A stretch of 58,938 nucleotides of DNA from Candidatus Heimdallarchaeota archaeon (GTDB lineage: Archaea > Asgardarchaeota > Heimdallarchaeia > Heimdallarchaeales > Kariarchaeaceae): the NCBI GenBank assembly GCA_015523565.1, contig WAKA01000122.1, positions 1 through 58,938 of the forward strand, in the 5' to 3' direction. The notes under the pieces are model-generated. The model saw nothing but the letters and a program-made list of their open reading frames with translations, searched no databases and was not told where the DNA came from. Positions 46,276 to 53,089 of this stretch are shown here, piece by piece (position 1 is the first letter of the stretch; each line of letters begins with the position of its first letter). Position numbers and translations under genes: made by a program.

Positions 46276-47772
46276 GTGCAGGATATGAGTGAGGAAACTT
46301 ACGTTGACGTTCTGAGGTATTCAAGTAGGAGAACCTTATTGGGATTGAATGTCATATTGTTGATAGCAGGGGCGGTTTTGGCTTCCTTCATTGCTTTTTC
46401 TCTGAGTAATTTGCTGGCTGACAATAATATAGGAGATAATATTCTTTCATTTTTTGTTTTGATGTTGTACTTTTTCATTTTCATCATGATAGTAATGTTT
46501 ATCGAATATTTTTTCTCCATTGGATTATTTTATTCACAGAAAACAAGAATTGCAGGATTTTTGGTTTTCATTGGCATTTCCTTTTCTTTTGGGTTTTCAC
46601 TTGCTTTGATCAAGTATACAGATAAAGTGAATGTTGAATTGGTCTCTACACTTTACTTTCTTTCAACTTTGGCGTCTCTAGGAAATGGTGTATTCTTCCT
46701 TTTGACTGCAAGTGGACCGAAAACGGAAACAGACATCAGAAGAAGGTTTGATGAAATAAAGGAAGAAATTGCTGAAAAGAAAATATCGGACATGAAAATT
46801 GATGAAGCCCTTCGAAGAGCCGAACGTTGGATTATTAATAAGCAAAGAGATGATGGTACGTGGGGAGAAAAAGAGCCTTTATTTGAAACCGCCTCAGTAG
46901 GTAGAATGTTTCTATTGACAAATCGTGGACCAGATTATTCTTGGATTAAAATTGTTGATGGAAATGAAGAAATGCGCACAGTTGAACAGATTTATTACTT
47001 GGTTTTGGAAGCACTTGAAACTGCCTCAATTCAAGAAACCTATCAAAGCCTCCTTCCTGTACTTTTTACGTTAACCGTCAATAATGAAATCATCAACTTT
47101 GATGACATAGCCATTCTTGAACAACGTGCAAAGCTTGCCAATTTCAGTGAGTGGGATTTTGTTAGCCAATTGGAAAAGAAAGAAGCAAAACTTACGAAAG
47201 AAATTCCACCACTAGTTGCATTGGGACCGATTTTCAAATATATGGAAGATTATGAAGGTGCACAAATCGTGGCAGACATTTTGGCAAATACATTCAACAT
47301 TATTATGAATAGGTCTGTCAAAAGATTTGCAAGCATAGAAGACGATACCGAAATCCCCATGCTCATTATTGGTGCATTGTATAATTCATTGGTTGAGTTA
47401 TTGGAAAGAGAACCTTACTCTAAGGCACCTGAAATGTATGGTAATCAACAAAACACATTAGACATGTTGGGAATTTCCCTTCCATCTCAAGGGGGAAAAA
47501 TCAAGGCAGAAGTTCGTTTAGGAAGAGTCAGAGAATACTTAAAGTCAAACCAAGAAATTGATGGATCTTGGGATGGAACCATAACTGCAACAGCGGAATG
47601 CCTTAGGGCAATAGCCCATGGAGACTCAATCGAAAGCAACGAGGTCAAATTTGCAACATATTTCCTTATTGCACAGCAGAAGCCAGACGGTTCATGGAAT
47701 AATGATATAGTGACAACCACACAAGTCATAAAGGCACTTTGGGCAGTCCAGTCAAGAATCATCATTCATTGA
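46276..47772 (+). CDS. Four-TM protein with prenyltransferase/terpene-cyclase-like (QW) alpha-toroid domain
   Basis: N-terminal TMs; QRDDGTWGEKE, NQEIDGSWDGTI and QQKPDGSWNNDI QW-type motifs. Confidence 0.7.
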   Translation: MQDMSEETYVDVLRYSSRRTLLGLNVILLIAGAVLASFIAFSLSNLLADNNIGDNILSFFVLMLYFFIFIMIVMFIEYFFSIGLFYSQKTRIAGFLVFIGISFSFGFSLALIKYTDKVNVELVSTLYFLSTLASLGNGVFFLLTASGPKTETDIRRRFDEIKEEIAEKKISDMKIDEALRRAERWIINKQRDDGTWGEKEPLFETASVGRMFLLTNRGPDYSWIKIVDGNEEMRTVEQIYYLVLEALETASIQETYQSLLPVLFTLTVNNEIINFDDIAILEQRAKLANFSEWDFVSQLEKKEAKLTKEIPPLVALGPIFKYMEDYEGAQIVADILANTFNIIMNRSVKRFASIEDDTEIPMLIIGALYNSLVELLEREPYSKAPEMYGNQQNTLDMLGISLPSQGGKIKAEVRLGRVREYLKSNQEIDGSWDGTITATAECLRAIAHGDSIESNEVKFATYFLIAQQKPDGSWNNDIVTTTQVIKALWAVQSRIIIH

Positions 47773-47773
47773 G

Positions 47774-48589
47774 GTGCAGCAATTGCAATTCTTCTGTGAG
47801 CTTTTATTTGCCTCTATCACATTTATTGCATTAACAGTGGGGGCAATTCAAGACATCCTTACAAGATATACAAGTAATAAGATTTGGATAATCCAAGGAG
47901 CCAGTGGTTTTATCCTGCTAATAATTTGTGGCATTATTGAGCCATACACACCGTTGGAACTTATCGGGATTGGGTTAAACATTGCTTTTGCTGTCTTTTT
48001 TGGGTTCTTGTTCCTATTGATTGGGGCTTGGGGGGCAGGTGATACAAAAGCATTGTTTGCCCTAGGCATTTCATCACCAATTGTGTTTTCATTCATCAAA
48101 ATGGAGATTCCCCCACAATTAAGCCTCGTACCTCTCTTCCTGATAATTGCAAATTTTGTTTACGCAATTGCAATACTGATATTTACAAACCTCATATGGA
48201 ATTTGCTTTCTCTAAGAAAATTTGGAAATTGGTTCAAGGAAACGAATGCATCTATTTTTATAAAATTGGTGACTGTTCTTACAGCAGTTCAAATACCTTT
48301 GGACAAGCTCAAAGTAGAATCGTTCTTGGATCCAATAGAAACTTTCAATGAAAAGTGGCATATTGAATTTTCCATTTTCAATGATTACAACCAAGATGAT
48401 GAAATACTTGAGCAACAGGAAAAAAAATTAAGAAAGGATATCAGGGAGAAAGCAGACGAAACAGGCAGGAAATATATTTGGGTAAGACCACAAATTCCAG
48501 GACTTGTGATTTTCTGGCTTTCATACATAATCTGGATATTTTTTGGTTCTGCAGGTGTAACCATCATCTCATGGGTTATTGGGATTTGA
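47774..48589 (+). CDS. A24 (GxGD) prepilin/preflagellin peptidase
   Basis: GAIQDILTRYTSNKIWII and GAWGAGDTKALFALGI (two catalytic Asp motifs) in a polytopic protein; GTG start 1 nt after upstream stop. Confidence 0.85.
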   Translation: MQQLQFFCELLFASITFIALTVGAIQDILTRYTSNKIWIIQGASGFILLIICGIIEPYTPLELIGIGLNIAFAVFFGFLFLLIGAWGAGDTKALFALGISSPIVFSFIKMEIPPQLSLVPLFLIIANFVYAIAILIFTNLIWNLLSLRKFGNWFKETNASIFIKLVTVLTAVQIPLDKLKVESFLDPIETFNEKWHIEFSIFNDYNQDDEILEQQEKKLRKDIREKADETGRKYIWVRPQIPGLVIFWLSYIIWIFFGSAGVTIISWVIGI

Positions 48590-48658: not shown

Positions 48659-51133
48659 ATGCAGGACTTCAGTGTTTTGAGAACTGCAAATGTAATTTTT
48701 CTAAGCCTACTACTTGCATTTCCATTAGGTTTCCTTGCAGGTTTGAGAGGCGTGGATGATGTAAGACCCACTGTAACATACAATGGACTAATTGGAAAAG
48801 TGGAAGTATATCGGGATCAAAACAATATACCAGCAATACTTGCTGACAATGTTGAAGACATGTTATATGCGCAGGGGTATGAATTCGCAAGGGATAGGTT
48901 GTTCCAGTTGGAATTCTACAGGTCAATAATAAATGGTGAACTTTCAAGACTTTTTGGAAGGGCAACAATTGAGGCAGATATGTTTCTCAGAACAATTGGA
49001 TTGAAAAGGGCGGCAATTAGAGAGACTAAACAAGCTGATCAAAATTTAGTGAATCTAGTATCTGCTTATGTCCAAGGCATTAACGATTTCATAGATTCCC
49101 ATTTGAACAATTTACCATTGGAATTTCAACTCTTGGGGGTCAATCCAAAGCATTGGACAGTAGAGGATTCCTTTGGAGTTCATGGAATACTTTCATATAA
49201 TTTTGCATTTGGAGGGCTCTGGAATGAGATTGTGCGATATGAGGTTATCAAAAAGGTGGGAACAGAAAAATCATTGGAATTGCTTCCTGTACAGTTTGAA
49301 CCTGCAAAGGAATATATAAGGAATTATGATGAAAGCATTGATATTTTTGGTTCGGGTACATTGCAATTGGCACAGAAGGAAAATGAAGATACGATTTTGG
49401 GATACAACATTCCAGATTTTCTAAAGGATATACTAATGCCAAAACTACCAAAATTCGCATCAAACAATTGGGTGATCTCAGGTGCAAAAACAAAGTATGG
49501 CAAGCCAATTTTAGCAAATGATCCACACTTAGGCCTTTCTGTACCAGGACTTTGGTATTTTGTCACATTGATTGCCAGAAAGGATAACATTCATTTGCAA
49601 GGATATACCATCCCAGGATTGCCGTTTATTGGTCTTGGACATAATCAATATATGGCTTGGGGAGCCACCGCGGCAATAGCGGATTCTGTGGACACCTTTT
49701 ATCTCAAGACAAATGGAGAAAAATATCTAGTGAACAAGACGATTTGGAAGGATTTCAAATATGAAAAACACCAGATACCAGTGAATGGACAAAACCCAAT
49801 TGACTTTACTGTTAAACTAACAGATTTTGGACCGATGATAAATGTAACCATCAATGGAAAGGAAGGCCAACTTGCCTTAAAATGGACATTTTTGGAAGAT
49901 GACCCACGAAACCAGCCATTCAAGGGAATTTACTCATTTATTAGGGCAAAGTCTGTTGATGAGTTTCATGAAGCCCTGAAATATTTGACAGTGCCTGGGT
50001 TTAATTGGGTGTTTGCAGATACGGATGGAAATATTGGTTTACAGCTTAATGCGCAGGTACCAATAAGGACACAGGGATATGGTCTTTTACCTCAAAACGG
50101 ATCATCAGGCAAATCGTTTTGGAATGGATCAATTCCATATGAAATGCAGTACTATGTGAAAAACCCACCTCAAAACTTTCTTTATTCCGCAAACGAAAGA
50201 GTAGATAAAAGAAACCAATTTTATTATTCAGAAACATTTGCTTTGGGATATCGGGCACGAAGAATATCACAAGTGATCGAGAATGGAACAGATTTTTTTG
50301 GGGACAAAGACAATTGGGATCTGCATATGACACAAAAGCTTCAGGCAGACGTAAAAAATTTGGTGGCAGAAGATCTACTTGACCCAATAATTCAAGATCT
50401 TTCAAATCTTGACTTCAACGGATTTGAAAATGCAGGATATTTAAGAAGAGCAGTGAGGCTTCTTGAGAAATGGGATAAAAGAATGGGTGTTAATTCGGTT
50501 GAAGGACTGATATTTACAACATTTACGCTATTTTTTGTCAAAGCAACATTTGAAGATGAACTGGGATGGGAAATGACAAGAAAAATGCAATATCCAAGCA
50601 TAGGAGCAATTGCAAGATTTCTAAATCAAAAACAGAATCTTAACTGGTTTGACAATATCAATACTGCGAAAAATGAATCTGTAATTGACACCGCTGTTGA
50701 GGCTTTAAAACAGTCAATTTCATATCTTATCAATAGCTTTGGTTCCGAAATGGACTCATGGAAATGGGGAAGGGCCCATATAATGAGATTTGAACATCCC
50801 ATGTCCAGTGTCCTCCCATTTTTGGATATCGGGAATGAGGGAATGAATGGAACCTCTTTAACAATCAATGCACTTGAAGGCCCTTGGTTTAGAGCAGACG
50901 GTACAATCAGGTATAATTTTGCATATGGTCCATCAATGCATTTCACAGTTGTCGTTGAAAATAAATGGGGTAATATAGAAATCAATTATCCTCCGGGTGT
51001 GTCAGGAAATATTGGATCAAAGAACTACGACAACCTATACGAAATGTGGAGAGATTTCAAATACTTCTCCCCACCTTTCAATGAAGAGGACATACGCAAT
51101 AACTACAGTTTGGAGGTGGTATATACCAAATGA
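48659..51133 (+). CDS. Penicillin acylase (Ntn-hydrolase, peptidase S45-like)
   Basis: IPAILADNVEDMLYAQGYEFARDRLFQLEFYR; autoprocessing/nucleophile region FASNNWVISGAKTKYGKPILANDPHLGLSVPGLWY; GHNQYMAWGAT. Confidence 0.93.
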   Translation: MQDFSVLRTANVIFLSLLLAFPLGFLAGLRGVDDVRPTVTYNGLIGKVEVYRDQNNIPAILADNVEDMLYAQGYEFARDRLFQLEFYRSIINGELSRLFGRATIEADMFLRTIGLKRAAIRETKQADQNLVNLVSAYVQGINDFIDSHLNNLPLEFQLLGVNPKHWTVEDSFGVHGILSYNFAFGGLWNEIVRYEVIKKVGTEKSLELLPVQFEPAKEYIRNYDESIDIFGSGTLQLAQKENEDTILGYNIPDFLKDILMPKLPKFASNNWVISGAKTKYGKPILANDPHLGLSVPGLWYFVTLIARKDNIHLQGYTIPGLPFIGLGHNQYMAWGATAAIADSVDTFYLKTNGEKYLVNKTIWKDFKYEKHQIPVNGQNPIDFTVKLTDFGPMINVTINGKEGQLALKWTFLEDDPRNQPFKGIYSFIRAKSVDEFHEALKYLTVPGFNWVFADTDGNIGLQLNAQVPIRTQGYGLLPQNGSSGKSFWNGSIPYEMQYYVKNPPQNFLYSANERVDKRNQFYYSETFALGYRARRISQVIENGTDFFGDKDNWDLHMTQKLQADVKNLVAEDLLDPIIQDLSNLDFNGFENAGYLRRAVRLLEKWDKRMGVNSVEGLIFTTFTLFFVKATFEDELGWEMTRKMQYPSIGAIARFLNQKQNLNWFDNINTAKNESVIDTAVEALKQSISYLINSFGSEMDSWKWGRAHIMRFEHPMSSVLPFLDIGNEGMNGTSLTINALEGPWFRADGTIRYNFAYGPSMHFTVVVENKWGNIEINYPPGVSGNIGSKNYDNLYEMWRDFKYFSPPFNEEDIRNNYSLEVVYTK

Positions 51134-51613: not shown

Positions 51614-53089
51614 ATGGAATTTGTCCCCTCTGTTGATTTGTTTAAATTTCGAGGAATTGAAACAATGGGGACAACCACAGATAGACTTTATAAAATCAAT
51701 GTATCCCCAGAAGAAGTGCAAAAAATCCCGAATTTATTGATGAAGTTGGGAAACAAAGTGTATTTATCCTTGACAAACGGGAAATCAGACAGTTATAATA
51801 TCCAAGAACTAATTAACCGGCATCATGATATTATGGATCTTTGTAAAGTCAAACCAAGGTATATTGAATTAAAATATCCGTATGATACCTCCTTGTTAGA
51901 GAAAATTCCAGAAGGGACAACCCCTATAATTTGTTTTGAGGATCTGGAAGGAACCGCAAAGATTGACTTCCACATGATCATCAAATTGGCAAAAAAATAT
52001 CCTAATGCAGTCTTTAAGATTTTGGCATCCCCAGAAACAATTATTGAATTGAATCTCCTGATTAGATGGGGAAAGCAATTGACAGAAAATGAAATTAAGC
52101 ATGTCATTCTCTGCAATGGAAGGTTTGAATCATTAACCCCCTATTTATACGAAAAATTTGGAAACCTATTTTTGGAACTTAAGGAAACGCCATACCATGA
52201 TAAGAAATTAGATCCACGGATACATAGTACCCTTGAAAGGATTATTCAACAATTCCAAGAAGAAAACAGTTTTTCAAAGCATGAAATACCATTTGTACAA
52301 CAATTAGTTCAACAAACGGCACCCTTAACACCAAAAATAGCAATCCTTGGCAAAGAGAATCTTGCATTCATTGAAAAAGACATCTTTGATCTTCTCAACA
52401 AGTATTCGAGAAGAGTTACAGGTTCAGTCTATTTGCCTGTCAAATCAGTTGAAGAAACAAATATTTTCATTACAGGCATAGGAAAACAACTATTTAACGG
52501 GTTTTCATTTGTAGGGTTGGAAACAAAAAAAATTGAAGGAATAGATCAATATGACTTGTCCTCTGCAAGAACAGGTGTAACAAGTTTTTTGCTGAAAAGG
52601 GAAACAGAGCTAGTTAGTTTCGACACATATGAAATAATTATGCAAAGCATATTCAATGAAATTAAGGACATGGAAATTGTTAACATATATATTGAAGGTA
52701 TTCATCCAATGCTGTTCTCAATATTGCCGACCATTTATAATCAGGCAAACATGATAAAAATAAGAAACAGGACAAAGACAAAAATTGAAAAAGTAAAGAA
52801 CTACTTTTCAAAAGTTGAACCAGTTGCATCTAAGGAACAATTTAGTTATGACATAATAATTAATTTTGTCCCCTTTGGAACAAAAGGTCTTCCAAATATG
52901 TTGCCATTTCCAAAGAAATTGCTGGAAAATGCAAGGTTGGTGATAGACACAACTGTTTCACCAGTACAGACACCCATTGAAAAAGCAATAAAAAAATATA
53001 ATGCAGTATATTATAACGGTCTTGATATTTTGGCAAGGAAGGCATATGTTGAAGAACAACTAATCAACACAAACATTTTTTCGGAATAA
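51614..53089 (+). CDS. Degenerate AroD-AroE-like (type I dehydroquinase + shikimate-dehydrogenase-like) fusion
   Basis: N-half: PIICFEDLEGTAKIDFHMIIKLAKKYPNAVFKILASPETIIELNLLIRW and LCNGRFESLTPYLYEKFGNLFLE; C-half: SVYLPVKSVEETNIFITGIGKQLFNGFSFVGLETKK and IINFVPFGTKGLPNMLPFPKKLLENARLVIDTTVSPVQTPIEKAIKKYNAVYYNGLDILARKA. Confidence 0.6.
   Translation: MEFVPSVDLFKFRGIETMGTTTDRLYKINVSPEEVQKIPNLLMKLGNKVYLSLTNGKSDSYNIQELINRHHDIMDLCKVKPRYIELKYPYDTSLLEKIPEGTTPIICFEDLEGTAKIDFHMIIKLAKKYPNAVFKILASPETIIELNLLIRWGKQLTENEIKHVILCNGRFESLTPYLYEKFGNLFLELKETPYHDKKLDPRIHSTLERIIQQFQEENSFSKHEIPFVQQLVQQTAPLTPKIAILGKENLAFIEKDIFDLLNKYSRRVTGSVYLPVKSVEETNIFITGIGKQLFNGFSFVGLETKKIEGIDQYDLSSARTGVTSFLLKRETELVSFDTYEIIMQSIFNEIKDMEIVNIYIEGIHPMLFSILPTIYNQANMIKIRNRTKTKIEKVKNYFSKVEPVASKEQFSYDIIINFVPFGTKGLPNMLPFPKKLLENARLVIDTTVSPVQTPIEKAIKKYNAVYYNGLDILARKAYVEEQLINTNIFSE

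Follow-up and report, generated by a model that had tools for sequence, protein, structure and literature searches.

An AroD–AroE-type fusion with altered catalytic residues, conserved across the Asgard archaeal family Kariarchaeaceae

Fungi are already known to have shikimate enzymes that turned into regulators. The repressors QutR/QA-1S, GaaX, and TanX carry dehydroquinase (DHQase)-like and shikimate dehydrogenase (SDH)-like domains, are described as catalytically inactive, and occur beside a working pathway enzyme; under a current working hypothesis, QutR is a catalytically inactive protein derived from AROM that still binds its inducer (PMC10512348). A bifunctional DHQ-SDH enzyme that makes shikimate is found in plants, and an SDH-like protein of the HI0607 type (SdhL) has been solved as a stand-alone protein. 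In working type I DHQases, Lys170 has a Schiff-base role and a dual role has been proposed for His143 (PMC4114755). Here we describe an archaeal protein with the two-domain architecture of the plant enzyme and altered active sites.

The protein is encoded in a stretch of 58,938 nucleotides (the window; contig C122) from a 3.57-Mb genome of the family Kariarchaeaceae (Heimdallarchaeia) estimated at 90% completeness. Its reading frame, hereafter pseudo-AroDE, begins with ATG, contains no internal stops, and specifies 491 amino acids (Table 1). An earlier note on this DNA had read it as a degenerate AroD–AroE fusion, with an N-terminal half resembling type I DHQase and a C-terminal half resembling SDH. 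Searched singly against NCBIfam, the window protein matched aroE (3.9e-10) and the bifunctional AroDE model (1.4e-8). Neither DHQase nor SDH was matched in Pfam, indicating that the protein is highly divergent. A profile built from the window protein and seven orthologues retrieved Arabidopsis DHQ-SDH (2gpt, 1.4e-29), the SDH-like protein HI0607 (3.6e-26), and stand-alone dehydroquinases and AroD structures (approximately 1e-12). In addition, seven of the eight altered family members matched DHquinase_I at a threshold of 0.1, the best at 6.1e-30.

Structural modeling agrees with these assignments. The AlphaFold model of the window protein (pLDDT 81.6, pTM 0.80) shows TIM-barrel beta/alpha order in the DHQase-like half, and its top Protein Data Bank matches are the DHQase-SDH portion of AROM and plant DHQ-SDH (2o7q, TM 0.70). 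Among single-domain structures, the closest in fold to the SDH-like half is HI0607 (1npy, TMt 0.82). The profile and DHquinase_I matches thus place the N-terminal half with the type I DHQase TIM barrels, the aroE and fold matches place the C-terminal half with the AroE fold, and both parts of the earlier reading are borne out. The window protein is a genuine AroD–AroE-type fusion, and in the model both domains fold as such; chance resemblance is ruled out by the profile and fold matches.

Table 1. Features of the window that bear on pseudo-AroDE and its genomic setting
Feature	Position	Strand	Basis
Toroid protein (membrane and squalene-hopene-cyclase-like), adjoining the A24 peptidase gene	46276..47772	+	SQHop_cyclase_C 1.3e-8; synteny
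A24 prepilin-peptidase-like gene, conserved upstream partner	47774..48589	+	Arc_PepC_II 1.4e-7 (above cut-off); Peptidase_A24 1.4e-5 (just below cut-off); synteny
Penicillin-acylase family gene, between peptidase and pseudo-AroDE	48659..51133	+	1.8e-179
Pseudo-AroDE gene	51614..53089	+	Resemblance to DHQ-SDH in profile, sequence, and fold; carried by 9/9 family genomes
DHQase-like half, approximately residues 1-197	51614..52204	+	Approximate boundary from alignment and low-confidence linker in model
Replacement of the His block, residues 108-117 (FEDLEGTAKI)	51935..51964	+	D110, G113, and K116 invariant in 8/8 full-length paralogs
Codon of the Schiff-base lysine, K135 (K170 of E. coli/Salmonella AroD)	52016..52018	+	Lys in 15/15 aligned copies, intact and altered
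SDH-like half, approximately residues 237-491	52322..53086	+	Alignment; HSxSP, NVTxPxK, GxxNT, NTD, and GxGGxA motifs lost
DPM2-like small membrane protein, 95 aa	25972..26259	-	Pfam DPM2 6.2e-5, below cut-off

We compared active-site residues across seven intact and eight altered full-length AroDE copies. As the earlier note had proposed, the Schiff-base lysine survives in the window protein, where alignment to fusions with intact motifs places it in the sequence FKILASP, and the histidine block is changed: SxHD reads CFED, with E109 standing in for H143. None of the eight altered copies retains His143, which is replaced by E, K, V, L, V, M, L, and N, and Glu86 is found in one aligned altered copy only. 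The SDH signatures had likewise been called altered, and they are: in the window protein NVTxPxK reads SFVG-LETK, GxxNT reads GVTSF, and NTD reads DTY. The catalytic Lys65–Asp102 pair is absent from all eight copies (K to E or Q; D to Y, N, Q, or I), all eight lack the second and third glycines of the NADP-binding GxGGxA loop, and HSxSP is gone (read from the AroDE alignment, as rows S14, S16, and M203 of the residue table sit one or two columns off).

In what they retain, the altered copies fall into two states. Five of the eight keep E46, R48, D50, R82, E116, K170, M205, and R213 while losing H143; the three copies from the window's genus have lost most pocket residues, including E46, R48, R82, and R213, and keep K170 and D144. 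Within the replaced block, the altered copies have newly fixed G113 and K116, and the invariant D, G, and K recur in an interrupted copy from another genome, G003 (LDFDGMSKI). The AlphaFold model places K135 in strand 6 and K116 in the loop that follows strand 5; in such barrels this loop belongs to the active-site face.

Loss of a single residue need not abolish activity: the K69A variant of M. tuberculosis SDH has a kcat reduced 68-fold, leaving approximately 1/68 (PMC2789096). In pseudo-AroDE, by alignment, several essential residues are lost together, namely those for dehydration (E86 and H143) and those for NADPH-dependent reduction (K65, D102, and the GxGG loop). By its residues, the window protein falls short of the catalytic requirements of both AroD and AroE. 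The earlier note had allowed that structural alignment might recover a normal enzyme. A normal divergent enzyme is ruled out: it is the catalytic residues that are lost, and an alignment consistent with the structures recovers none of them.

A search for canonical aroD and aroE elsewhere in the genome, which the earlier note had recommended, found them in a second AroDE fusion (484 aa, contig C44) with every checked catalytic residue present. Its operon neighbors resemble DHQS-II, a GHMP-type shikimate kinase, EPSP synthase, and chorismate synthase. Because this intact-motif enzyme sits in an aro operon of the same genome, pseudo-AroDE is not needed for the shikimate pathway, and the possibility that it is the sole pathway copy is ruled out. 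Canonical AroDE, whole or partial, occurs in six other genomes of the family, with a fragment in a seventh. In one 1.4-Mb genome (G007, RS678), AroC, DHQS-II, and canonical AroDE were not found, although these genes normally form one operon and the assembly is 80% complete; its pseudo-AroDE gene (L022:10187-11689) is intact, and the genome also encodes a chorismate-binding enzyme. The missing aro genes reflect either an assembly gap or pathway loss.

Pseudo-AroDE was found in all nine sampled Kariarchaeaceae genomes, scoring 500-711 bits against the profile. Nothing else in 228 genomes of the phylum scored above approximately 105 bits, and the sequences at that level were AroE-like proteins of other kinds or ordinary enzymes. 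When 84,980 species genomes were scanned with conserved blocks from a five-row alignment, only six relatives were returned within the limits of those patterns, all from this group, among them the named records Candidatus Heimdallarchaeota RS678 and Kariarchaeota FT_008. The single window protein found no relatives in a scan of genome contigs, and a limited literature search returned nothing joining Asgard archaea, Heimdallarchaeia, shikimate, and aromatic amino acids. The altered copies are monophyletic (support 100/98, or 100/100 without one long branch). To judge from the tree, they may stem either from this family's AroDE, by duplication, or from a separate AroDE fusion lineage (support 90/80); at that support, a recent duplication of the family's own AroDE is not established. 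The longest branch of the tree belongs to a stand-alone AroE-like protein of sister family f2 (G009; L033:42-1070) in which NVTxPxK reads SVEDDFK and NTD reads NTE, possibly another altered SDH.

The reading frame is open in eight of the nine genomes at pairwise identities of 22-53%. Identity between family members at second codon positions is 0.54-0.75, compared with approximately 0.29 by chance, while third positions are near chance. In the other genera, the altered copy matches or exceeds the intact AroDE of the same genomes in conservation (0.38-0.41 against 0.32-0.37); in comparisons within the window's genus, or of that genus with the rest, the altered copy is the faster evolving (0.22-0.37 versus 0.34-0.42 for the intact enzyme). 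By these measures, pseudo-AroDE is under purifying selection across the family. The exception to the open frame is G003 (L018:722-2188, minus strand), in which a TAA and a TGA, two codons apart, interrupt the frame where the SDH-like half begins; the gene may be decaying or split there, or the sequence may contain an error.

Across the family, the gene belongs to a recurrent one-strand order of toroid protein, A24 prepilin peptidase, AroDE-like protein, and DPM2-like protein. DPM2 is the regulatory subunit of dolichol-phosphate-mannose synthase. The DPM2-like gene is conserved across the family and directly follows pseudo-AroDE in seven of nine genomes; it lies elsewhere in G001 and in the window, where it is 25 kb away, and only these two genomes have the penicillin-acylase gene at the locus. 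The G007 locus is without the toroid and peptidase genes. The toroid–peptidase pair is present in several families of the order, and since in family f3 it occurs without an AroDE-like gene, pseudo-AroDE probably joined a pre-existing locus. Among its neighbors (peptidase, toroid, acylase, reductase, and membrane proteins), we found no known link to aromatic metabolism, no linked regulator gene, and no biosynthetic gene cluster. The conserved neighbors suggest a cell-envelope locus in which to seek a partner.

The earlier note had proposed a catalytically altered fusion with a new substrate or a regulatory role. That the protein is altered and still useful stands, given its homology, its fold, the loss of both catalytic sets, the intact AroDE, and conservation across the family; the choice between regulation and a new substrate is one we infer. 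We propose that pseudo-AroDE is a neofunctionalized pseudoenzyme and rate as its likeliest role, at a little under an even chance, that of a metabolite-binding regulator working like the fungal QutR/GaaX repressors. The barrel would still bind a carbonyl metabolite, perhaps by forming a reversible imine with K135, but would not turn it over. In genera that keep the pocket, the ligand would be similar to dehydroquinate or dehydroshikimate; in the window's genus it would be a different one. Ligand binding would alter how the SDH-like half engages a partner, and the protein would thereby report the level of the metabolite, as is thought for the fungal QutR/GaaX/TanX repressors. The five copies that keep the pocket and lysine and lose H143 point to such binding without turnover. 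Counting against a regulator, no DNA-binding domain is recognizable in pseudo-AroDE. Moreover, ligand binding may be gone or changed in the window's genus, to judge from the loss of most substrate-contacting residues there, and the conserved lysine could be structural. A wider claim is speculative and somewhat unlikely: that this archaeal family, derived from AroD–AroE and arisen independently of the fungal AROM-derived repressors, uses its relict Schiff-base lysine to sense a carbonyl metabolite or capture it covalently.

Pseudo-AroDE could instead be a new enzyme that retains Schiff-base chemistry at K135, uses K116 (with D110) in place of His143, and acts on another carbonyl substrate in an aldolase-like or dehydratase-like manner, with the SDH-like half serving structure or substrate handling. 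The invariance of K135 even where the rest of the pocket has changed fits this idea, as do the three residues invariant on the expected active-site face in all altered copies, K116 being newly fixed. However, a biosynthetic setting is missing around the gene, and the pocket of the window's genus differs so much from those of the others that one conserved new reaction fits poorly; we consider a new enzyme doubtful. Less probable again is a structural or complex-building protein whose fold is kept for contacts, in which neither pocket matters and K135 serves packing. Such a protein would account for the near-complete loss of pocket residues in the window's genus and for the envelope-related genes that adjoin the locus, but pure scaffolding does not predict five copies that keep the substrate residues of a DHQase and lose only its chemistry.

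For those five copies, the kept substrate residues and the strength of the DHquinase_I matches might be taken to indicate a weakened but working DHQase, a backup AroD in the genera with intact pockets. Loss of the catalytic histidine should slow the reaction by many orders of magnitude, though, and H143 is missing from all altered copies and E86 from nearly all, while most of the genomes hold a separate AroDE with both residues; we regard a backup AroD as very improbable. Least credible of all is that the gene is decaying into a pseudogene. The accelerated evolution in the window's genus and the two stops in G003 speak for such a relic; against it stand the frame open in nearly every genome, the strong codon-position constraint, and the newly fixed motifs.

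A family-wide, selected AroDE with an altered active site in an Asgard lineage would show that this two-domain enzyme can be put to new use more than once. The copies form a natural series from the intact enzyme, through proteins that keep the pocket without its chemistry, to proteins that have lost the pocket and kept the lysine, which allows the passage from enzyme to pseudoenzyme to be tested step by step. The series also carries a caution: in these genomes, AroD or AroE function should not be assigned from homology alone.

Among known relatives, the family's canonical AroDE (L024:10233-11684) shares architecture and genome with pseudo-AroDE, but the two are only approximately 14-21% identical, and the canonical protein has intact catalytic residues and sits in an aro operon. 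Plant DHQ-SDH (Arabidopsis, 2gpt/2o7q) has the same domain order and length and is, by TM-score, the best complete structural match; it possesses all catalytic residues, whereas pseudo-AroDE is without H143, K65, D102, and the NADP motif. The HI0607-type protein is the best single-domain match of the SDH-like half in both sequence and fold, but pseudo-AroDE is a fusion. The fungal repressors resemble pseudo-AroDE in pairing DHQase-like and SDH-like domains that stem from the shikimate pathway, described as inactive in the fungal proteins, and in occurring beside a working enzyme. Unlike it, they derive from AROM and have an extra shikimate-kinase-like domain, and each of their genes adjoins one for a Zn2Cys6 activator, whereas pseudo-AroDE comprises two domains without a kinase-like one and has no adjacent activator. 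By this comparison the likeness is at most convergent, and pseudo-AroDE is not a member of the fungal family; if the proposed role is correct, regulators would have arisen from these shikimate enzymes a second time.
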